A stretch of DNA of 36,676 nt. Source: Candidatus Thorarchaeota archaeon. GTDB taxonomy: Archaea > Asgardarchaeota > Thorarchaeia > Thorarchaeales > Thorarchaeaceae. Each line of letters begins with the position of its first letter. The first letter of the stretch is position 1. A program made the translations under genes and the position numbers. The stretch lies in the NCBI GenBank assembly GCA_030669595.1, contig DAOVDG010000006.1, positions 1-36,676 on the forward strand, read 5' to 3'. Under the pieces are notes generated by a model. That model did not search any database. It was not told where the DNA came from and saw only the letters and a list, made by a program, of their open reading frames with translations. Of this stretch, positions 4,804-31,967 are shown piece after piece.

Positions 4804-5336
4804 TTCTCATGGGCTGGCTCAAGTACCACAATTAAGGGTATGCAACAGCTGCCAGGAACTTGTAAAATCTTGAGCATTTCGTAGGTGGTTATAACATATG
4901 CTCAGGATTGAGTGGTGTGGATGTTCGATGCTGATTGCTAGGGCCTTCAAATATGAACTGGACCCAAACAACCAGCAGAGGACCAGGCTTTCACAACATG
5001 CCGGGTCCGAACGCTGCATGTAATCTTGTCGCCGCCAGTTGGACGGAGACAGAAAACGCCTTTGGAGAGGACGTGAGACTAGTCGCAGATTCAATAGGAT
5101 CTGCAGAGCAGACCTCAATGAATCAGGAACCGAACATCAGTCAAGGACATTGATGTCCAGGATTGTACAAGTTTCGGGCAACGGCTTCTATCTCGCGCCA
5201 ACTGGGCCAGCTTCCAGTGGCCCCTACATTAGTCTTAAGTAGCGTGAATTACGGACCGGGAACTTGCGAATGTAATACTACAGCTGATATGGTGAAAGTA
5301 CACGATTCATTCAGTGAGCACTTGGAGTCCCATCTC
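4804..5336. other. Long non-coding stretch with several hairpins
   Basis: No convincing protein is encoded here; the three ORFs in the track have no motif or coherent composition. Three inverted repeats stand out: GGACCAGGC at 4980-4988 with GCCGGGTCC at 5000-5008 (one A-G mismatch, 11-nt loop), GGACAT/ATGTCC at 5145-5158, and GGGCCA at 5204-5209 with TGGCCC at 5218-5223 (8-nt loop). GGACCC at 4960-4965 could also pair with GGGTCC at 5003-5008, giving an alternative fold. This could be an unannotated structured RNA. I could not match it to RNase P RNA, SRP RNA or a box C/D RNA. A CTTAAG near 5234-5239 may be the promoter of the GTPase gene. Confidence 0.4.
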
Positions 5337-5834
5337 ATGACCCGCTACGTCAAGGTTGCACTAATGGGGTCAGGGTATGCCGGCAAGTCCACCCTGATCA
5401 AACTTCTCACAGACAACGCGTCCGATTTAGATGCCAAATACAAGCCGACCTGTGGGATGGATTGCGGGACAATTACACTCGACAAGTTAACCAAGATTTC
5501 ATTGGTTGAGATGGGTGGTCAGACACACTTCGAGTTCATGTGGGCTGATTTGCTAAGGGGGAGCAAGATGGTGGTCGTTGTCACTGAGAGCACCCCCAAG
5601 GCAGTACTGAAGACGCGTCAAATACTGCAGAAATACAGGAGGGAGCTCGAAGGCGTTCAGATCATCGCAATTGCAAATAAACAGGACCTTCCTGGCTCTA
5701 TGAAGCCCCGCTCAGTTGAGGATTTGCTTGGAGTTCCAACCTATGGCATGGTAGCTATTGATCCGAAGCAACAGCTACACGGCTACAAGCTGATAGTAAA
5801 TGGATTACGGGACATGGCTCAAGTAGCAGCATAA
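5337..5834 (+). CDS. Arf/SRPRB-like small GTPase
   Basis: Small Ras-superfamily GTPase of about 165 residues. G1 is GSGYAGKST close to the N terminus, a switch I threonine lies in KPTCGMD, and G4 is the Arf-type NKQD. The G3 motif reads EMGGQ, where Arf proteins have DxGGQ: the Gly-Gly-Gln is present but the metal-associated Asp is a Glu. There is no N-terminal Gly for myristoylation and no CAAX-like tail. The track starts at 5163, but that extension is unlike protein; TTGGAG precedes the ATG at 5337, and an ATG at 5289 is the alternative. Arf-like GTPases are abundant in Asgard archaea. It stands alone between a structured spacer and the rpoD operon, so context does not reveal its membrane or trafficking role. 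Confidence 0.85.
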   Translation: MTRYVKVALMGSGYAGKSTLIKLLTDNASDLDAKYKPTCGMDCGTITLDKLTKISLVEMGGQTHFEFMWADLLRGSKMVVVVTESTPKAVLKTRQILQKYRRELEGVQIIAIANKQDLPGSMKPRSVEDLLGVPTYGMVAIDPKQQLHGYKLIVNGLRDMAQVAA

Positions 5835-5906: not shown

Positions 5907-5928
5907 TACATAAGTGTGGCACTCGTAC

Positions 5929-5963
5929 CCAGAGCATGGGCGAGTGAGCTGGCAGCCCTCTGG
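5929..5963 (+). promoter_or_regulatory. Leader hairpin at the 5' end of the rpoD operon transcript
   Basis: CCAGA pairs with TCTGG and, after a 4-nt bulge, GGGC pairs with GCCC around a 13-nt loop. It lies exactly where the transcript is predicted to begin and about 70 nt before the rpoD start. An RNA-level control or stability element of a ribosomal protein operon is possible; no known ligand is implied. Confidence 0.35.
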
Positions 5964-6030
5964 CAGGGTATTTCAGCGAGTCTGTCCGGGATCAGTGTCT
6001 TTTGGGTGCACTCCAAGGTCAGGTGTGATA

Positions 6031-6834
6031 ATGGAAATTACAATCATTAACAAACAGGATGATTCAATCCATTTCCTGGTTGAGGATGTAGATGTCGCAT
6101 TCGCTAACGCAATCCGCAGGGTAATGCTAACAAAGCTACCTGCTATGGCGATAGATGAAGTACTCATACTGGAAAACACCAGTGTTATGTACGATGAAAT
6201 GATTGCTCAGCGTCTTGGTCTCATTCCTATAGTAACAGACCTAGACTCCTACAATCTTCCCCAAGACTGCGAATGTGAAGGAAAAGGATGCAGCCTCTGC
6301 CAATGTACGCTTACACTAGAGGTGGAACCCGAAGATGAAGAGGTCGTTGTATACTCACGTAGCCTGACCTCACAAGATCCGAAGATAGTTCCTGCCTCTG
6401 GAAACATCCCAATTACCAAACTAGCACCCCATCAAAGACTGATTATCGAGGCCTACGCTCGACTTGGAACAGGCGCCGAGAATGCCAAATTCCAACCCGT
6501 CGCAACGGTTGCATACAAGTATGTTCCAGTCATTAGCGTGGATAAATCGAAATGCAATCTTTGTGAAGAATGCGTAAAGATCTGTCCGAAGAATATCATG
6601 AAAGTTGACGGAAGCACTTTGTCGACTCAGAACACATTGGACTGCAGCTTGTGCGAGGCCTGTGTTGATGTCTGCGAACCTGGTGCCATAACAATCGATT
6701 CCAAGAAAAACGCCTTTCTCTTCAAAGTGGAGTCCACCGGCTCTCTAAGCCCTGAAACCATTGTTTCGAAGACAGCAGAAATTCTGAAGACTAAAATCCA
6801 AGCTGCTCTTGATTATGCGAACTCTCTGAGGTGA
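6031..6834 (+). CDS. rpoD: RNA polymerase subunit Rpo3 (RpoD) with ferredoxin-like domain
   Basis: Platform subunit of archaeal RNA polymerase, homologous to RPB3 and bacterial alpha. The N-terminal dimerisation part has the family sequence FANAIRRVMLTKLPAMAIDEV, and a Cys-rich loop (CECEGKGCSLCQC) follows near residue 75. Residues about 170-215 carry two complete CxxCxxCxxxC motifs, CNLCEECVKIC and CSLCEACVDVC, so two 4Fe-4S clusters are predicted, as in several archaeal Rpo3 proteins. The track extends 39 codons upstream; the ATG at 6031 gives the family start MEITI and has AGGTGTG before it. 267 residues. It leads an operon with rpl18e seven bases downstream, and the expected upstream genes rps13, rps4 and rps11 are absent here. 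Confidence 0.97.
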   Translation: MEITIINKQDDSIHFLVEDVDVAFANAIRRVMLTKLPAMAIDEVLILENTSVMYDEMIAQRLGLIPIVTDLDSYNLPQDCECEGKGCSLCQCTLTLEVEPEDEEVVVYSRSLTSQDPKIVPASGNIPITKLAPHQRLIIEAYARLGTGAENAKFQPVATVAYKYVPVISVDKSKCNLCEECVKICPKNIMKVDGSTLSTQNTLDCSLCEACVDVCEPGAITIDSKKNAFLFKVESTGSLSPETIVSKTAEILKTKIQAALDYANSLR

Positions 6835-8938: not shown

Positions 8939-9334
8939 CTATTCCACGATAGAAACGACGCCGAGACCAGCATCTACCACGAGTTTCTGTCCAGTCTTAA
9001 TTTTGCTGACATCAATGTGATCAATCGTTGGTATTTCAGAGATGATACTTCCAACAGCAACCACCGGGTCAGTTTCCTTGTTGACTATCGCTAGGGGTGC
9101 TAGGCCAGCCTTCTTCAGGGCGAAGAGCACATATGAACCAACAGTCGACCCCTTGCCAGACGGAAACACAAGTATTTTTCCTGCAACGGATTTGCCTTCA
9201 AGTTCATGTCCTTTCTCGACGATGACCCCAGTATCAGGCTCGCACCCACCGTAGAAACTGATGTCTTCTGACGTTACTAGGGCTTCGCCCTCAGCTCTGC
9301 CCTTGTAGATTTTTCTACCTTCGAACTTGCTCAT
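8939..9334 (-). CDS. Phosphomevalonate dehydratase small subunit (aconitase X swivel domain)
   Basis: Small subunit of archaeal aconitase X, which dehydrates (R)-5-phosphomevalonate to trans-anhydromevalonate 5-phosphate. The DUF126 swivel-domain motif PSGKGSTVGSYVL is present near residue 57, with the conserved Ser, and an N-terminal GEALVTSEDISFYGG. The track starts seven codons early; the ATG at 9334 overlaps the large-subunit stop as ATGA and is preceded by a strong AAGGAGG, so it is the start. 131 residues. The split into two subunits is typical of archaea. Function follows from the paired large subunit and the UbiD-like and mevalonate kinase genes upstream. Confidence 0.92.
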   Translation of the reverse strand: MSKFEGRKIYKGRAEGEALVTSEDISFYGGCEPDTGVIVEKGHELEGKSVAGKILVFPSGKGSTVGSYVLFALKKAGLAPLAIVNKETDPVVAVGSIISEIPTIDHIDVSKIKTGQKLVVDAGLGVVSIVE

Positions 9335-10524
9335 GCAATCGCCTCCTTGATGCATTCTTCGATTGTTCTTATTTTTGTCTTGAAGCTATTCTTTCCGCGC
9401 GCATAGAAACAAGCCTTGGCAGAGTCCGTCAGCAGACCCTTGAATCGTCCTTTCAGCGGTGCTACTGCACAACAAGCGTCACTGACTAGGAACGCGCCAG
9501 CCTTCTCTATAGTGTCATAGTATCCCATCTTGACTGCAAGATCTTTGGTGGGTTTTGCAGTCGTAATCCAGACAGTCTTCTCCTTTGCCACCTTCTTGCC
9601 CTCTAGCATTTTCGCAATCTCTCCTATCTCCTTTATGCTGGCATGCGGACAGCCCACACTGATGAAGTCAATCTCAGCATCTGTATCGTCAAGCTCACTT
9701 CGAGCCGCATCCAACTCATCCTGAGTGATGACTTCAGTCTTGTCAGGTACCAGTGTCCTGTTTGGCGTCAAACCCTCCATGTGGAAGAGCGCAACCCCTC
9801 CGTAGGTTGCAACCGATGCGCAAAACGACTTCAGCTGCTCAGTTGTAGCATTTGCCACCCCTGTGATATAGGGTATCGCCTTCTTTGTGCGTGTCCCAAT
9901 TACTTGCCCGAGAAGGCCAAAATCATCAGTGTTCTCCATCCTTGCCTCGACATCGTATCTAACCTGTGCTACGCGATTCTCTTGCAGGTGAAACCCATAC
10001 TCTGCAGTTCTCCCGGTGAGTGCAGAAGCGAGCGCACTCGGGCCACCTTCTCTATTAGTCATTGCACCAATCACCGAGTTAGCGAAGCATACCGCTGAAG
10101 ACTCCGCCCATGCGATATGTTCCCCGTAGTGCGGCAGATTACCGATTAGGTACGGTGTGCATGTGCACGTAGCAATCACACCCATTTTCAAGAAGGCTTC
10201 CACTACTCTCCCCTGATTCTTCGCAAATCTCTCACTGATGCCATGCTTCTTCCATTCAGTCAGGTCCATTCCGGCAGGATTCAAAGTGGTGAGGACTCTG
10301 GTCTGACCATCTTCTGCCATATCGGAGAGATATTCAAGACCTGCTTCTCCAAGATTATGGTACGAAACCCCCGCGATTTGGACACTTGAAACTGAAATGA
10401 GCCTCTTGGCCCCGTATATTTCCCCAAGCGCTGTTATAATCTCCATGGCCTTTTTGGCTGATTTTCCGTACTTGCCATCCAGCATATCTCTGTCATCTTT
10501 GGTAAGTTCCAGCCCCAATCTCAA
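9331..10524 (-). CDS. Phosphomevalonate dehydratase large subunit (aconitase X)
   Basis: Catalytic subunit of the aconitase X dehydratase, expected to carry an iron-sulfur cluster. Family features: SVQIAGVSYHNLGEAG near residue 48, the CTCTPYL motif with Cys at about 120 and 122, NSVIGAMTNREGGP, VGCPHAS, and SDACCAVAPLKGR near the C terminus. The gene starts with TTG, preceded by CAGGAG, and that start overlaps the stop of the decarboxylase gene as TTGA. 397 residues. It is translationally coupled to both neighbours, which fits stoichiometric production of pathway enzymes. Confidence 0.94.
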   Translation of the reverse strand: MRLGLELTKDDRDMLDGKYGKSAKKAMEIITALGEIYGAKRLISVSSVQIAGVSYHNLGEAGLEYLSDMAEDGQTRVLTTLNPAGMDLTEWKKHGISERFAKNQGRVVEAFLKMGVIATCTCTPYLIGNLPHYGEHIAWAESSAVCFANSVIGAMTNREGGPSALASALTGRTAEYGFHLQENRVAQVRYDVEARMENTDDFGLLGQVIGTRTKKAIPYITGVANATTEQLKSFCASVATYGGVALFHMEGLTPNRTLVPDKTEVITQDELDAARSELDDTDAEIDFISVGCPHASIKEIGEIAKMLEGKKVAKEKTVWITTAKPTKDLAVKMGYYDTIEKAGAFLVSDACCAVAPLKGRFKGLLTDSAKACFYARGKNSFKTKIRTIEECIKEAIA

Positions 10525-11828
10525 TCACTCCTGAATTTGCTTGGATCCATCTTTGGAAATTCCGCCCGGTCAAAGCTCTTTCCTTTCGCAACCAATGGCT
10601 TTGTGACATCGAAGCCAATCTTTGTAGTCAACTTGGTGCCTGGCTCAGCACTCGGGTCGAGAGAGCTACCCGGTTCCCGGTCCTTGATGAGCATATCTTC
10701 ATCACCCTGGAATCGCGTCGCCAATGCCCACTCTCTGTCCTGCTCGTTGTAGATGTCTATGTCATCGTCATAAACCCAGACATGTTTTGCGCTCCGGTGT
10801 CCTCCAAATGCGCCCTCTAGAGCTTTGATACCATCATCCTCATTCTTTTTCCTGATCTTGATGGCTATATGAAGCCAACTTGCCCCTCCAGGCGTGATGT
10901 TAACATCAAGCACATCAACTCCCTTCTCAGCCACCTTGCGAAAGACAGTAGGTTCCCTAGGCATCCCCATCAAGACCTTGTGCTCGGATCGTCCTGGCAG
11001 AAGTCCCTGCCAAATTGCAGTCTTTCTGTGAGTAATCTTCTTGACTTCAAAGATGGGTTCCTGACGAACCACATCTACTGTTTCTGTCAGGTCAATGAAT
11101 GGACCTTCATCAGCTTTCTCTTCCAAGAACACTCTCCCTTCCAGCACAAACTCTGAATCTGCTGGTATCATCAGGTCAACGGTCTTTGCTTTGGTCACCC
11201 TGATTGGTCCGAGTGCGTTGGCTATCTCAAGTTCGTCTACACCCGTTTCTACGGAAGTCGCGGCAGCTATCAAAATCTCCGGTGTATTACCTATACAGTA
11301 TACAACGTCCACCTCGCCATTCCGCTCCAAGAACTTATGAAAGTCACGTCCTCTGACAACTCTGGTGACCATTCGGTCCTTGCCAATCTGCATGGCTCGA
11401 TGGAAGTCAAGATTCTGTCCAAACTCGGGGTCACTAGCAACAACAACCCCCGATGATATGTAGGGCCCTCCATCCACCTCATTATGAACTAGTATCGGGA
11501 TGTCATCTAAGTTCACACTATCCCTAATGACCTCTTGGCAAGGTGCGTCTTTCATTGCTTCAGGAGGGCTTCTGTTCTCAATAGCATTGGTAAGAGTTGG
11601 AATAATGTCCTCCGTCTTGATTCCGAAATAGCCTGCAATCTGCTCCTTTGTGCAGAAGAGGTTTCCTGCCACTCGAAATTCAGACTCCTTCACTTTTTCG
11701 AATATAGCTGGTGTTGGTTCCAACGCTTTGAGTACGCCTGCAATCTCAAGACTTCTTGAGATTTTCTTATCGAATCTTTCTATCTTGTTCTCCTTGCTCA
11801 GTTTCTTGATGTAGTTCTCGAGTATCAT
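10521..11828 (-). CDS. UbiD-family anhydromevalonate phosphate decarboxylase
   Basis: UbiD-type decarboxylase using prenylated FMN. In the archaeal mevalonate pathway this family converts trans-anhydromevalonate 5-phosphate to isopentenyl phosphate. Recognisable segments are SGVVVASDPEFGQNLDFHR, EILIAAATSVETGVDE, PADSEFVLEGRV followed by DEGPFIDLTE, and FGGHRSAKHVWVYDDDIDI. The track starts 13 codons earlier; the ATG giving MILENYIKKLS avoids overlap with the kinase gene and has GAGAGG upstream. 435 residues. Without its neighbours it would be only a UbiD homologue; the flanking mevalonate kinase and aconitase X genes make the specific assignment strong. The cofactor-making prenyltransferase UbiX is not in the window. 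Confidence 0.92.
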   Translation of the reverse strand: MILENYIKKLSKENKIERFDKKISRSLEIAGVLKALEPTPAIFEKVKESEFRVAGNLFCTKEQIAGYFGIKTEDIIPTLTNAIENRSPPEAMKDAPCQEVIRDSVNLDDIPILVHNEVDGGPYISSGVVVASDPEFGQNLDFHRAMQIGKDRMVTRVVRGRDFHKFLERNGEVDVVYCIGNTPEILIAAATSVETGVDELEIANALGPIRVTKAKTVDLMIPADSEFVLEGRVFLEEKADEGPFIDLTETVDVVRQEPIFEVKKITHRKTAIWQGLLPGRSEHKVLMGMPREPTVFRKVAEKGVDVLDVNITPGGASWLHIAIKIRKKNEDDGIKALEGAFGGHRSAKHVWVYDDDIDIYNEQDREWALATRFQGDEDMLIKDREPGSSLDPSAEPGTKLTTKIGFDVTKPLVAKGKSFDRAEFPKMDPSKFRSD

Positions 11829-11842
11829 TACGCACGCCTCTC

Positions 11843-12784
11843 TTACAGTCCAAAGGATGTTGTCCATACCCCGGCCGCGCCTGCTTGTTCCAAGATCTTT
11901 GCAATCCTATCTCTGGTGGCCTCATCTGGGGCTAGCGATATGATGTTGCCTCCTCGTCCCGTCCCAGTCATCTTAGAGCCTAGCGCTCCATTCTCTCTAG
12001 CAACTTTCGTTAGGGCATCCAGTTCCTTGCATGACACAGTGAGTTCCTGCAGCAGTTCGTGGTTCTTATTCATGAGCTTGCCCACTTTCGAGAAATCCAG
12101 TTGAAGCAATGCATCACGACCAGAATAGACTAGGTTCTCATACTCTCCGGCAATTTTGTCGAACCATTCAGGGTTTTCATCTTTCTTGGCTCTTACATCC
12201 TCAACTACCTCTATCGTACTCGCAGTGAGACCGGTGGATGCAATCACTAGATGCGCCAGTTTCTTCAGTTTGAGTTTCTCAAATGTAGGCGGTCCTCCCT
12301 CGAGATTTCTGATATACCACACAAGTCCTCCAAAGGTCGATGCAGTATTATCAATCCCAGATGGTGTCCCGTGATAGCCCTTTTCCCCCTCGAGTGCAGC
12401 CTCATTGATTTGGTCATTGTTCAGTTCAAGCGAGAATTCATCATTCAGAGCTCGAGCTAGAGCGACGCAGCTCGCTGCACTGGCCCCTATGCCAGACGCG
12501 CAGACCAAGTCACCTCCCAATTGAATGTGAATACCCGTTTCTGACAAGTCCATGTTGCAATATCGAAGGACATTGTCAATCGAAACCTTTTGCTCATCGA
12601 GCTTCTTGGCCTTATATCCAGGCATGGCTGGCCTCTCATCATCAAGGGTCCATCCCACTTGGTCTATCTTGCTAACCTTCGCCGTAGTTTCGGCAGCTAT
12701 ACCTGCAGCAAGTGCGGGTAATCCATATACCACAAAATGCTCACCGAAGAGGATAGTCTTGCCTTTTCCGCTTCCTTGGCCCAT
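11843..12784 (-). CDS. mvk: Mevalonate kinase
   Basis: GHMP-family kinase making 5-phosphomevalonate from mevalonate. Motif 1 GKTILFGEHFVVYGLPA is near residue 10, the ATP loop appears as ASGIGASAASCVALARAL (a variant of PxGxGLGSSAA), GTPSGIDNTAS carries the catalytic Asp, and the C-terminal motif is KMTGTGRGGNIISL. 313 residues from the ATG at 12784; a GTG two codons upstream is the alternative. It is the first gene of a four-gene operon that continues with the decarboxylase and both dehydratase subunits. A mevalonate kinase near rps2 is a known archaeal neighbourhood, but here it faces rps2 rather than following it. Confidence 0.95.
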   Translation of the reverse strand: MGQGSGKGKTILFGEHFVVYGLPALAAGIAAETTAKVSKIDQVGWTLDDERPAMPGYKAKKLDEQKVSIDNVLRYCNMDLSETGIHIQLGGDLVCASGIGASAASCVALARALNDEFSLELNNDQINEAALEGEKGYHGTPSGIDNTASTFGGLVWYIRNLEGGPPTFEKLKLKKLAHLVIASTGLTASTIEVVEDVRAKKDENPEWFDKIAGEYENLVYSGRDALLQLDFSKVGKLMNKNHELLQELTVSCKELDALTKVARENGALGSKMTGTGRGGNIISLAPDEATRDRIAKILEQAGAAGVWTTSFGL

Positions 12785-12859
12785 TCTCACTCACTCAAGT
12801 CCAAGTTTGTGAAGTGGCTGTAGTTAATCGTTGCGTTTGAGCTCTTCCTTCGACATTAG

Positions 12860-27258: not shown

Positions 27259-27819
27259 TTACCAAGGGTTCTTCTTTAGCCCAAGCAAATAGCTGCATGC
27301 ATTGCTCACCCAGTGAATGACGAGGGTCACGAGAATAAGAATTGCGGGATATACAGGATTTGGCTGTAGGAATGGAGCAGCAAGAATCAACGCCATTAGT
27401 ACAAATCCGAGCTGATCAAGCATAGGCGATGGCGCACCACTACGGAGATTGACTCGCCTTTTTAGAAACGAACCAACCAAATCACCCAGCAGAGCGCCAA
27501 TCGACAGTATCAGGGCGATTGAAACGCCTGAGAAGAGAATGGCTTCCATGCCTTGTGACACCGTAAGATACTGCACCATATGCAATCTAACATGTGGGGC
27601 AGCGATTGACTGTGCAACTCCGGTAGAAAAACCAAAAACAATCCCTGAAATGAACCCTCTGATAGTCTTGCCATCCCCGAGAATCCTGTTGCCATCCCTG
27701 AGCAGTAGCCCAGCGTCCATTGGCCTTCCTCCACCAAAGATAACTGGAGTGGCATTGGAAACCCACGCTGGCAAGCCCAACCATAGGGCGAGTCCAACTA
27801 GGGCTAGTTCCTCGTACAT
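27259..27819 (-). CDS. carS: CDP-archaeol synthase
   Basis: Integral membrane enzyme that activates 2,3-di-O-geranylgeranylglyceryl phosphate with CTP, giving CDP-archaeol, the branch-point precursor of polar lipids. Family motifs: NATPVIFGGGRPMD, DGKTIRGF, GDLVGSFLKRR and SPMLDQLGF, with about five hydrophobic segments over 186 residues. The start overlaps the radB stop as ATGA, so the two are translationally coupled though functionally unrelated. It acts downstream of egsA and the isoprenoid genes of this window. Confidence 0.95.
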   Translation of the reverse strand: MYEELALVGLALWLGLPAWVSNATPVIFGGGRPMDAGLLLRDGNRILGDGKTIRGFISGIVFGFSTGVAQSIAAPHVRLHMVQYLTVSQGMEAILFSGVSIALILSIGALLGDLVGSFLKRRVNLRSGAPSPMLDQLGFVLMALILAAPFLQPNPVYPAILILVTLVIHWVSNACSYLLGLKKNPW

Positions 27820-28615: not shown

Positions 28616-29377
28616 ATGCCTCGCAGTGAAGTCGCAGTAGCAACAAGAAACCCCAAAACGCTCTATCTCGTTATGGAGGTTCTCAAGGGCCTAAATTTGG
28701 ATTTCGTGGTCTGTGAGCCTAGTGGTGCAGAGTGTCAGATTGCTAAGGTCATCATAACCACAAGTGACGAGGCAAAAAATCTAGACCCTGAACGAGTAGT
28801 CATTGTAGAAGATGATCTTAATGAAGACTCCATGGTGATTGCTCTGATGCTTCACCTTCTAGACATAAGAAAACCTACAAGCATTGTTGTTGGGGTTGAT
28901 CCCGGACTGCGATTCGGGTTGGCACTGGTCATAGATGGCAACGTGGTTCGGACCAAGATGTCCTCCTCACCAGCCAAGGCTGCCCGTTTCACCTTGCACT
29001 GGCTGGCAGCATTCAACGACAGTTTCTCTCAGGAGCCCGTGATACGAGTTGGTACTGGATCTAGCATGTTTGCAGCGTTCTTTCTCCGAGAAATCACTCC
29101 GCATGTAGACCGCACTTCACTGGAGCTGGTTAATGAAGAGAATACCACAAAGGTTGGCGAATCGGACAAGTCATCTGCCATTCTGATTGCAATGCGTAGA
29201 GGCCGGCCGTTGAAAGAATCGGATGACATCTTTGAAATCCGGGAAAGCCATGTGCAATCTCTGAAACATTTGGTTCTTGATATCACCAATGGCACCAAAC
29301 ATATTTCCACAGCTGAGGCACAAGCGGTGCTGCTGGGCGACAAATCATTTGAATGGTTACTGGACACCACTGGCTAA
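28616..29377 (+). CDS. RuvC/RNase H-fold protein, putative nuclease
   Basis: 253 residues. The C-terminal two thirds open with VGVDPGLRFGLALVIDG, where Asp95 is in the position of the first catalytic Asp of RuvC-like nucleases, followed by a predicted strand IRVGTGSS, an acidic ELVNEENT strand (Glu170-175) and ESDKSSAIL (Asp184). That order of acidic residues fits an RNase H fold. The N-terminal 85 residues (YLVMEVLKGLNLDFVVCEP, IITTSDEAK) form a separate alpha/beta domain. The family is archaeal and uncharacterised as far as I know. Divergent position beside radB supports a recombination or repair role. Its TAA overlaps the XPD stop. Confidence 0.7.
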   Translation: MPRSEVAVATRNPKTLYLVMEVLKGLNLDFVVCEPSGAECQIAKVIITTSDEAKNLDPERVVIVEDDLNEDSMVIALMLHLLDIRKPTSIVVGVDPGLRFGLALVIDGNVVRTKMSSSPAKAARFTLHWLAAFNDSFSQEPVIRVGTGSSMFAAFFLREITPHVDRTSLELVNEENTTKVGESDKSSAILIAMRRGRPLKESDDIFEIRESHVQSLKHLVLDITNGTKHISTAEAQAVLLGDKSFEWLLDTTG

Positions 29378-31302
29378 TCGCTGAAGAAGGCTTCCACCTG
29401 TTGAGCCACCATGTCTGGGCTGTCAGGCATCACTTGTGTGACCTCATCTAACCATTTGGGCATAAATCGTCTGAGGTAACTTGCTGCAAATCGTTGATCC
29501 AAAAGAATAATGACTCCGCGATCTTCGAGTCGCCGAACTGGTCGGCCGGCCGCCTGAACCGCTCGAGTCATTGATGGCAAAACGTAGGCATAGTCCCTTC
29601 CTCTGCGATTAAAGCGCTTATCGAAGTATTGAATCAGTGCATCCGTTCGAGGGGTTGGTCTGGCATAAGGCACCCCCACAACGATGACACTCTCCATTGT
29701 GGAACTCGGGAAGTCACCTCCCTCGGAGTTACGCCCTCCTTGCACTCCCAATAGGACGGCACCTCCCATATCCCCTCTTGCTTTGAATTCCTCTATCATG
29801 GTGTCGTTGTCACTGGTCTTCATTCCCTGCTTCTCTAAGTAGAGATTCTTTCTCAATCTCTTCTCCAAGCCTGCTCTGAGCAAGGCGCCCCCCACAGCAT
29901 AGCTTGTGGTGAAAATACCAGTGTTACTTGGCGTAGCGTGAGCAACAGCAACACAGTGGTCAACCATGCGACTGAATAGCGCATCAGACCGTGTCTTGTA
30001 GGAAGTACCCACACCCTCAACAATCATCGCCAACCTGTTTCGTTTAGCGAACGGGTTATGGAATGTCAATTTAGCAGTTTCAGGACCAAACCCTATCATC
30101 TCAGAAAAGGCATCGAGGGGGGAGAGAGTCCCGGAGATGGCAACTGAACTGCGCACCATTCCGAGTATTGGATTCGTAATTACGGTTGGGTCAAGTGCCA
30201 CAAGATCAAGCGAAACTCTCCTACTCTCTCTAATAGTCCGAACCGACGCAATCATGAACGTGTAGTCTTCTCGTTTGGAATATCCAACCCACTTCAGCAT
30301 GAAGTCAGCAACTCTGTGAATTGTGGACCTAGGGAATTTGCCAGCCTTCAGAAGACCACGTCGTATACTTGCTCCTATGTCTTTCATGTGCGACAAAATT
30401 TCGTCTTCCGGTTCCATTCCGGCCTCCATAATCGCAATCTCAAAGATGACTTCCGGATCCACCATCTTCTCATCATCTTCTTTCATCTCTGTTGAATGCT
30501 CTAGGATGACTTTTGCAAGCTCTCTGCAGAAGTCCTTGGAAATAGTATCGTGGTAAGTTGTCGCCTCACGAATGGCCTGTCTTATCGTTCCCACGGGTAG
30601 CGAGTCGCTAGCGGAATCTAGGGCTGTAGACGGTATATTGTGCGCTTCATCTTGAATCAAAACGACCTTTCCAAGAGGTATTTCAAGTTCGGGCACGAAC
30701 GCTTCCATAACAAAAGGATCAAACACGTAGAGGTAGGAGAGAGCTATAACATCAACGACTTTGGCGAGCTTCTTGGCCAGTTCATATGGACAGAAAGTAC
30801 GCTTCTTGGCGATTCTGACTATGTCCGGCGCCGTGAGTACTCCTGAGGGCATGATGTCAAGAACACTCGCAGAATCCACTGCTTTCTTTGTTCTCTCGTA
30901 GTATGCGCACTTTCCTGTTGCCTTCAACTGTCCACATACCTCACTGATGGGCGCAAAAAAGCCAGCATTCTCAAGAACGAAAGGATTGAGACACATATGG
31001 CGTCTTCCTCTGAAAGAAACTCCAGTTACACATTGTTTCTTTGATATCGCGTCAAGCTCTTCCATGACACGATCTAGCTGTCTATGCGTCCGTGCGCAAT
31101 AGAGCACTTTGCCATTGTTTTCCAAAACCCATGGTAGAACTCCACATAATGTCACGCAAGTCTTTCCAAATCCATTTGGCGCCTCACACACAATATCATG
31201 TCCGCTTCTGACCTTGTCGCTAATCTGATTCATCATTTCCTCTTGGCCGTTACGAGGCTCATCATATGGAAAGAAATCCATTGGAGCGGGTTGTTCAGTC
31301 AT
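29374..31302 (-). CDS. xpd: XPD/Rad3-family DNA helicase with Fe-S cluster
   Basis: 5'-3' superfamily 2 helicase of repair, homologous to the TFIIH subunit XPD. Walker A APNGFGKT is at 41-48, four Cys that can hold a 4Fe-4S cluster are at 104, 123, 132 and 171, and the DEAH box is QDEAH at 218-221. C-terminal helicase motifs include GTLSPLDAF, FTTSY, LLGVQGGRNSEGGDF and AVQAAGRPVRR. 642 residues. A TATA-like TTATCAATAG precedes the ATG by about 30-40 bases. It overlaps the end of the RuvC-like gene by a few bases and lies divergent from the PAC3-like gene. Confidence 0.96.
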   Translation of the reverse strand: MTEQPAPMDFFPYDEPRNGQEEMMNQISDKVRSGHDIVCEAPNGFGKTCVTLCGVLPWVLENNGKVLYCARTHRQLDRVMEELDAISKKQCVTGVSFRGRRHMCLNPFVLENAGFFAPISEVCGQLKATGKCAYYERTKKAVDSASVLDIMPSGVLTAPDIVRIAKKRTFCPYELAKKLAKVVDVIALSYLYVFDPFVMEAFVPELEIPLGKVVLIQDEAHNIPSTALDSASDSLPVGTIRQAIREATTYHDTISKDFCRELAKVILEHSTEMKEDDEKMVDPEVIFEIAIMEAGMEPEDEILSHMKDIGASIRRGLLKAGKFPRSTIHRVADFMLKWVGYSKREDYTFMIASVRTIRESRRVSLDLVALDPTVITNPILGMVRSSVAISGTLSPLDAFSEMIGFGPETAKLTFHNPFAKRNRLAMIVEGVGTSYKTRSDALFSRMVDHCVAVAHATPSNTGIFTTSYAVGGALLRAGLEKRLRKNLYLEKQGMKTSDNDTMIEEFKARGDMGGAVLLGVQGGRNSEGGDFPSSTMESVIVVGVPYARPTPRTDALIQYFDKRFNRRGRDYAYVLPSMTRAVQAAGRPVRRLEDRGVIILLDQRFAASYLRRFMPKWLDEVTQVMPDSPDMVAQQVEAFFSD

Positions 31303-31417: not shown

Positions 31418-31768
31418 ATGGAAATGAGTCTGGATGACATCAGGGAATTCGAATCCGAATTTTCACAGGGCAAGCTCAGGGGTAGAGTGATTGACCTTGA
31501 GAATGGCATACTGCTTCTCTTGTCTGACTCAGAAAGGTTCCGAATCTCTCTCTCAGCTGTGGCAATTCCGCCGTCTCATGGACGTAGAGAACCCGTTTCC
31601 ACTGGCTTTCTCTCGACGGGTCTAGATGCAACGCTTGTACGCACTATAGCTGAAAGAGTTGCAGCATGGACTAATCGGACCTGCATGCTAGTCATCGCGG
31701 TGAATGGTCTGAATAGGGAACTGATGATGGAAATCATTGCAGTTTTGAAGAACTACCTTGTGGCATAA
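31418..31768 (+). CDS. Proteasome assembly chaperone 3-like protein
   Basis: 116 residues. From about residue 27 it follows the layout of eukaryotic PSMG3/PAC3: a strand ILLLLSDSERFRISL, a loop ending EPVSTGFLSTG (PAC3 has a VLTTKVLLG in this place), a helix DATLVRTIAERVAAWTN, a strand MLVIAV and a final helix RELMMEIIAVLKNYL. This comparison is from memory and sequence identity is modest. If right, the protein would dimerise and assist assembly of proteasome alpha rings. No proteasome gene is in the window. GTTTATTACTT near 31382-31392 suggests a short or absent leader. Its end overlaps the zinc-ribbon gene by 35 bases. Confidence 0.5.
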   Translation: MEMSLDDIREFESEFSQGKLRGRVIDLENGILLLLSDSERFRISLSAVAIPPSHGRREPVSTGFLSTGLDATLVRTIAERVAAWTNRTCMLVIAVNGLNRELMMEIIAVLKNYLVA

Positions 31769-31967
31769 GATGTTCAGCAATCTCGCGTACCCACATACCC
31801 GTTTCATCTAGTTCGTGCACGCGATTCAGGTACTCTTGCCAGTCTATCTCAAGTGCGCGCTTCCAATCACCGAACGTAACCCGCAGGTTATCAAGCGCGT
31901 GTCTGTGGTAAATACAGAACTCTGAATCCTCTGCAACTTCACGACCGCATACCGAACACACATTCAC
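31734..31967 (-). CDS. Small zinc-ribbon protein
   Basis: 77 residues. CSVCG followed by EFCIYHRH gives a CxxC-x(n)-CxxH metal site in the first 23 residues, then a conserved helical part with FGDWKRALEIDWQEYL and a C-terminal region WVREIAEHLM. Such small zinc proteins are common in archaea and uncharacterised. The GTG start overlaps the topoisomerase stop as GTGA and is preceded by GGGAGGAA, so it is coupled to topA. Confidence 0.75.
   Translation of the reverse strand: MNVCSVCGREVAEDSEFCIYHRHALDNLRVTFGDWKRALEIDWQEYLNRVHELDETGMWVREIAEHLMPQGSSSKLQ

Follow-up and report, generated by a model that had tools for sequence, protein, structure and literature searches.

A PAC4-like protein family of Asgard archaea and its linkage to ubiX in several lineages

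In eukaryotes, the alpha ring of the 20S proteasome is put together with the help of PAC3-PAC4. Archaea also have homologues of eukaryotic proteasome assembly chaperones in PbaA/PbaB (PAC2 family, PF09754), which belong to the unrelated PAC1/PAC2 type, are longer than the protein described here and in some cases carry a C-terminal HbYX motif, and the archaeal 20S particle is reported to assemble chaperone-free (PMC13022661, PMC6992696; likewise a 2026 review). In PAC4, the residues modelled to touch alpha subunits are Arg48, Asp70 and Arg85 (PMC6539346). The Pba3/Pba4 fold is found again in LpdD of Lactobacillus plantarum (PF21758, PAC_bac; PDB 8p4w), a homodimer that binds Mn2+ through His35, His61 and Asp63, binds reduced prenylated FMN (prFMN) and aids the activation of UbiD decarboxylases (PMC10865409). 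Homologues outside eukaryotes are therefore already known, and the premise of an earlier sequence-only reading of the DNA studied here, that PAC3 and PAC4 are eukaryotic factors, is not supported. Our literature search, which included the Heimdallarchaeia ancestry paper, turned up no paper describing PAC3/PAC4 homologues from archaea, Asgards included. A further point of reference is the archaeal mevalonate pathway, which runs through phosphomevalonate dehydratase and anhydromevalonate phosphate decarboxylase (PMC9385802).

Here we describe a small protein encoded in a Thorarchaeal contig of 36,676 nucleotides, referred to below as the window, meaning the whole stretch of DNA that was analysed. 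Its open reading frame (116 codons plus stop; Table 1) has the position given by the sequence-only reading, and the VSTGFLSTG loop that had drawn attention is indeed present, reading PVSTGFLSTG at residues 59-68. Almost every sampled genome of this Thorarchaeota family has a relative, with identities of 34-97%, and the locus is conserved too: an XPD-like helicase gene points away on one side, and on the other a 77-aa putative zinc-ribbon protein and a TopA gene follow. When seven members of the genus are compared pairwise, dN/dS falls between 0.02 and 0.11 and third codon positions hold most of the differences. Together with the conserved locus, these ratios show that the open reading frame is a real gene under purifying selection. 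Translation probably starts at the second ATG, giving 114 aa: every genus member has that codon, whereas two of them, L035 and L036, lack the first. AlphaFold2 gave a mean pLDDT of 46 from a shallow alignment (the window sequence plus six near-identical loci), so that the fold predicted for the protein is one assigned by homology.

Table 1. Features of the window discussed in the text.
Feature	Position	Strand	Basis
Gene for the PAC4-like family A protein (PAC3/PAC4-LpdD superfamily), 116 aa; translation likely from 31424	31418..31768	+	
Arg42, position of LpdD metal ligand His35	31541..31543	+	alignment
P59-V60-S61-T62 loop, common to PAC4 (IPVSTS)	31592..31603	+	alignment
G68-L69-D70, place of LpdD His61-x-Asp63; histidine gone, Asp retained here	31619..31627	+	alignment
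Putative zinc-ribbon protein, 77 aa, convergent; overlaps 3' end of family A gene	31734..31967	-	
Divergently transcribed XPD/Rad3-like helicase next door; kept throughout the family and in two further Asgard families	29374..31302	-	
Membrane protein, putative CDP-archaeol synthase; within block common to ubiX-linked loci	27259..27819	-	inspection
GHMP kinase, probably mevalonate kinase	11843..12790	-	
UbiD-family decarboxylase, anhydromevalonate phosphate decarboxylase	10521..11867	-	context
Aconitase X, phosphomevalonate dehydratase large subunit	9331..10524	-	
Aconitase X swivel (small) subunit	8939..9355	-	

Taken alone, the window protein matches the Pfam family PAC4 (PF16093) at 17.0 bits (E=0.0059), below the curated cut-off of 31 bits; two Thorarchaeal orthologues (L025, 37.1 bits; L026, 31.0 bits) reach this cut-off and most do not. 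A profile of 26 relatives (A1), compared with the PDB by hmmsearch, found human PAC4 as its best match (E=3.5e-6) and listed neither LpdD nor PAC3; an independent profile of 28 Asgard sequences with no Thorarchaeal member (A6) again placed human PAC4 on top (E=6.2e-5). Every A1 sequence (26 in all) has a PF16093 match, and 20 have a PF21758 match as well. For the window protein itself no PF21758 match was reported (Pfam cut-off 27 bits); that cut-off is passed by the Thorarchaeal orthologue L014 (30.4), which passes it rather than the PAC4 cut-off, and by L042 (30.8) from the family-level Asgard lineage f3 (such lineages carry f-codes throughout). Using human sequences identical letter for letter to those in the PDB, hhalign aligned the family, hereafter family A, with PAC4 at 91.9% and with PAC3 at 9.6%. 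A Pfam scan of the window protein gave no PAC3 (PF10178) match, and 3 of the 28 non-Thorarchaeal members matched PF10178 at E of about 0.02-0.1. On these comparisons, the window protein is a member of the PAC3/PAC4 superfamily and a distant relative of eukaryotic PAC4, the homology is real and Asgard-wide, and human PAC4 is the family's sole convincing solved relative. The sequence-only reading, which had called the protein PAC3-like, was thus right about the superfamily and wrong about PAC3 specifically; given the hhalign values and the profile matches, the label should read PAC4, or PAC3/PAC4 superfamily.

The likeness to PAC4 (PSMG4; human, PDB 5wtq, 8qyj) spans residues 6-112 and includes the PVST loop, in which Ser61 is invariant among 26 aligned sequences, an [IL]A[EQ]R[VL]A..TN[RK] helix and a length of about 115-123 aa. 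Differences from PAC4 lie in the sub-threshold Pfam score, in the modelled alpha-contact residues, none of which is conserved in the window protein (nor are they in yeast), and in the linkage of family A to ubiX in some Asgards. PAC3 (PSMG3; PDB 2z5e) has a similar loop-helix-strand order, but the sequence support for it is marginal.

Our homologue survey, which among archaea covered Asgard genomes, found matches to profile A2 in 127 of 214 genomes. A few of these matches belong to a second Asgard family, B, which bears the motif GG-D-x-x-HIG ... GHKD ... GIH. Family B matches PF21758 at E of about 1e-33 and its profile matches LpdD in the PDB at 5e-15, which places LpdD in PF21758; families A and B align by hhalign at 97.9% (E=4e-13) and are, on this alignment, homologous. 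The two differ at the metal site. Of 11 family B sequences, 10 have the HHD triad of LpdD, whereas not one of 61 family A sequences does: all Thorarchaeal family A members have R or K at the position equivalent to His35 (K in PAC3, H in PAC4) and lack His61. A phylogenetic tree separates family B and LpdD from family A, PAC4 and PAC3 with support of 99/97, a well-supported split in which family A falls on the PAC3/PAC4 side and family B is LpdD-like. Nesting of PAC4 inside family A received support of 92/28, in a tree where human PAC3 and PAC4, both on long branches, were the only eukaryotic sequences; as a topology grouping PAC4 with B and LpdD was not rejected, such nesting cannot be read from the tree.

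Of 44 sampled genomes from the Thorarchaeota family that are at least 70% complete, 41 have both families. Many Asgard lineages have only one of the two, and a search of the window's genome, about 85% complete, gave no family B. The Thorarchaeal family B gene (L070:4932-5393; loci L066-L072) is not near ubiX; by inspection it has two glycine dehydrogenase-subunit open reading frames on one side and a MoaD/ThiS-like and then a MiaB-like gene on the other.

Among the gene neighbourhoods of family A, those in other Asgards give the strongest pointer, towards ubiX and ubiD. In all nine sampled family-A genomes of f3, f6, f10, f12 and f13 (G038, G047, G041, G045, G049, G056, G059, G057 and G206), ubiX is the next gene downstream of family A and has the same orientation; in the loci that were read, the two overlap or are only a few bases apart. 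In f3, f6 and f12, ubiD and then acnX (aconitase X) follow downstream, the family assignments being Pfam-confirmed on examples. In f18, ubiD lies 2-3 kb from family A, and in two f2 genomes it is family B, not A, that adjoins ubiX. The f18 genomes G061-G064 and G083 (L077, L098), with a UbiD gene near family A, gave no UbiX at E<=1e-20; PF02441 matches there fall only in long open reading frames of about 410-440 aa, CoaBC-like by length, and none was found in G063. An operon of this kind might suggest that family A is simply LpdD, a reading rejected on the triad count, the comparison of family A profiles with the PDB, in which LpdD was not matched, and the tree.

In the sampled Thorarchaeal genomes family A is not adjacent to ubiX, which in the window's genome is on another contig, and ubiD is typically 20-24 kb away. 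Two ubiX-linked loci (L079 and L080) have the gene block c4-c7 in common with the window locus, which makes orthology between the Thorarchaeal and the ubiX-linked gene probable. Within the window, the UbiD gene, the only one found in this genome, forms a cluster with the aconitase X and kinase genes 20 kb from the family A gene. By inspection, the window also encodes a small GTPase-like protein with a GSGYAGKST P-loop (5163-5834) and RNA polymerase subunit D (Rpb3-like) with an apparent ferredoxin-like cysteine-rich insert (5914-6834).

Because orthologous genes lie within the ubiX-ubiD-acnX operon of other Asgards, we tentatively suggest the UbiX/UbiD system, in the archaeal mevalonate pathway, as the client of the window protein, a reading slightly favoured over one in which it serves the proteasome alpha ring. 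The protein would be a small PAC3/PAC4-LpdD superfamily chaperone of Asgard branch A, a beta-sandwich dimer as judged from its homologues, in which one conserved loop face (Arg42 to Pro51, PxST 59-62 and Asp70) would hold the client during maturation, so that prFMN would be delivered to anhydromevalonate phosphate decarboxylase. Support comes from the adjacency to ubiX, the c4-c7 block and the Thorarchaeal ubiD 20-24 kb away, and from LpdD, the only characterised prokaryotic member we found, being a prFMNH2 chaperone (PMC10865409). Several observations argue against it. The Thorarchaeal gene is not beside ubiX, and LpdD's metal site as such could not be used by family A, having been lost. Nearly all Thorarchaeal genomes carry the triad-intact family B, a better candidate for a prFMN chaperone, and the five operon cases may all go back to a single ancestral gene order. 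Moreover, no UbiD was found in 12 genomes with family A, namely all those sampled from f26 (seven), f22 (four) and f24 (one), where flavoprotein matches also fall short of the UbiX threshold used.

The same persistence without UbiD speaks for a role in 20S assembly, which we consider possible but slightly less probable. Here a PAC4-like dimer would sit inside the alpha ring, on its inner face, and guide the order of the alpha subunits until beta subunits displace it. The closest solved relative is PAC4 and not LpdD, the prFMN triad is lost, and proteasome genes, like PAC2-family genes, were found in 25 of 25 Asgard genomes searched. The window's genome has two distinct alpha genes (L107:1853-2617 and L108:1697-2434) and two beta genes (L106, L109), so that mixed rings are possible; it also has two PAC2 genes, one ending in -MYA, which is HbYX-like. 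In f13 a beta-subunit gene (L045:3597-4295) lies two genes upstream of family A, and in f2 a PAC2-family gene ending in -SLYI, likewise HbYX-like, is 4-6 kb away (L073:639-1457, L102, L076); a few such coincidences are to be expected in 25 genomes, and we gave them little weight. The f2 PAC2 gene belongs to a conserved cluster, with a roadblock-like protein and TFB, both by inspection, between it and family A. Against a proteasomal role stand the absence of any recurrent operon of family A with proteasome genes in the sampled Asgard loci, the reported chaperone independence of the archaeal 20S (PMC13022661, PMC6992696) and the lack of conservation of the PAC4 alpha-contact residues, which yeast does not conserve either. 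We therefore do not accept family A as a settled proteasome chaperone, the recurrent linkage being to ubiX and not to proteasome genes.

It is somewhat less probable still that family A binds or chaperones some other client. Its neighbours elsewhere (XPD, TopA, release factor 1, SHMT/FolD, HD hydrolase) indeed point to no single pathway, but this would leave both the repeated ubiX adjacency and the relationship to PAC4 to be explained. More doubtful is a Thorarchaeal heterodimer of A and B in the manner of Pba3-Pba4, with B supplying the metal/prFMN site. The joint presence of A and B in most Thorarchaeal genomes and the inclusion of an obligate heterodimer in the superfamily would fit this, but many Asgard lineages have A or B alone, LpdD is homodimeric (PMC10865409), and the two genes are unlinked in Thorarchaeal genomes, with B not found in the window's incomplete one. 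That the gene encodes a small protein of some other kind, such as roadblock or longin, or that the open reading frame is spurious, is very improbable and refuted at the level of sequence, given the purifying selection, the PAC4 profile matches and the lack of any Roadblock/LC7 family among the Pfam matches of the window protein, its orthologues or the non-Thorarchaeal members; we found nothing in favour of either.

To conclude, Asgard archaea have relatives of PAC3/PAC4 that can be detected by sequence, one branch PAC4-like and the other LpdD-like, which offers a testable route for the origin of the eukaryotic pair. Judging by the ubiX-ubiD-acnX operon, the ancestral client may have been a flavin-dependent enzyme that helps to make membrane lipids, and not the proteasome. 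An unlikely scenario is that family A is the archaeal precursor of PAC3/PAC4, having served first in prFMN/UbiD maturation for isoprenoid synthesis, with the proteasome already its client in some Asgards, those that lost UbiD, and a later split in eukaryotes giving the PAC3-PAC4 heterodimer. Family A, then, may be a pointer to the origin of the eukaryotic helper and not itself a finished proteasome chaperone.
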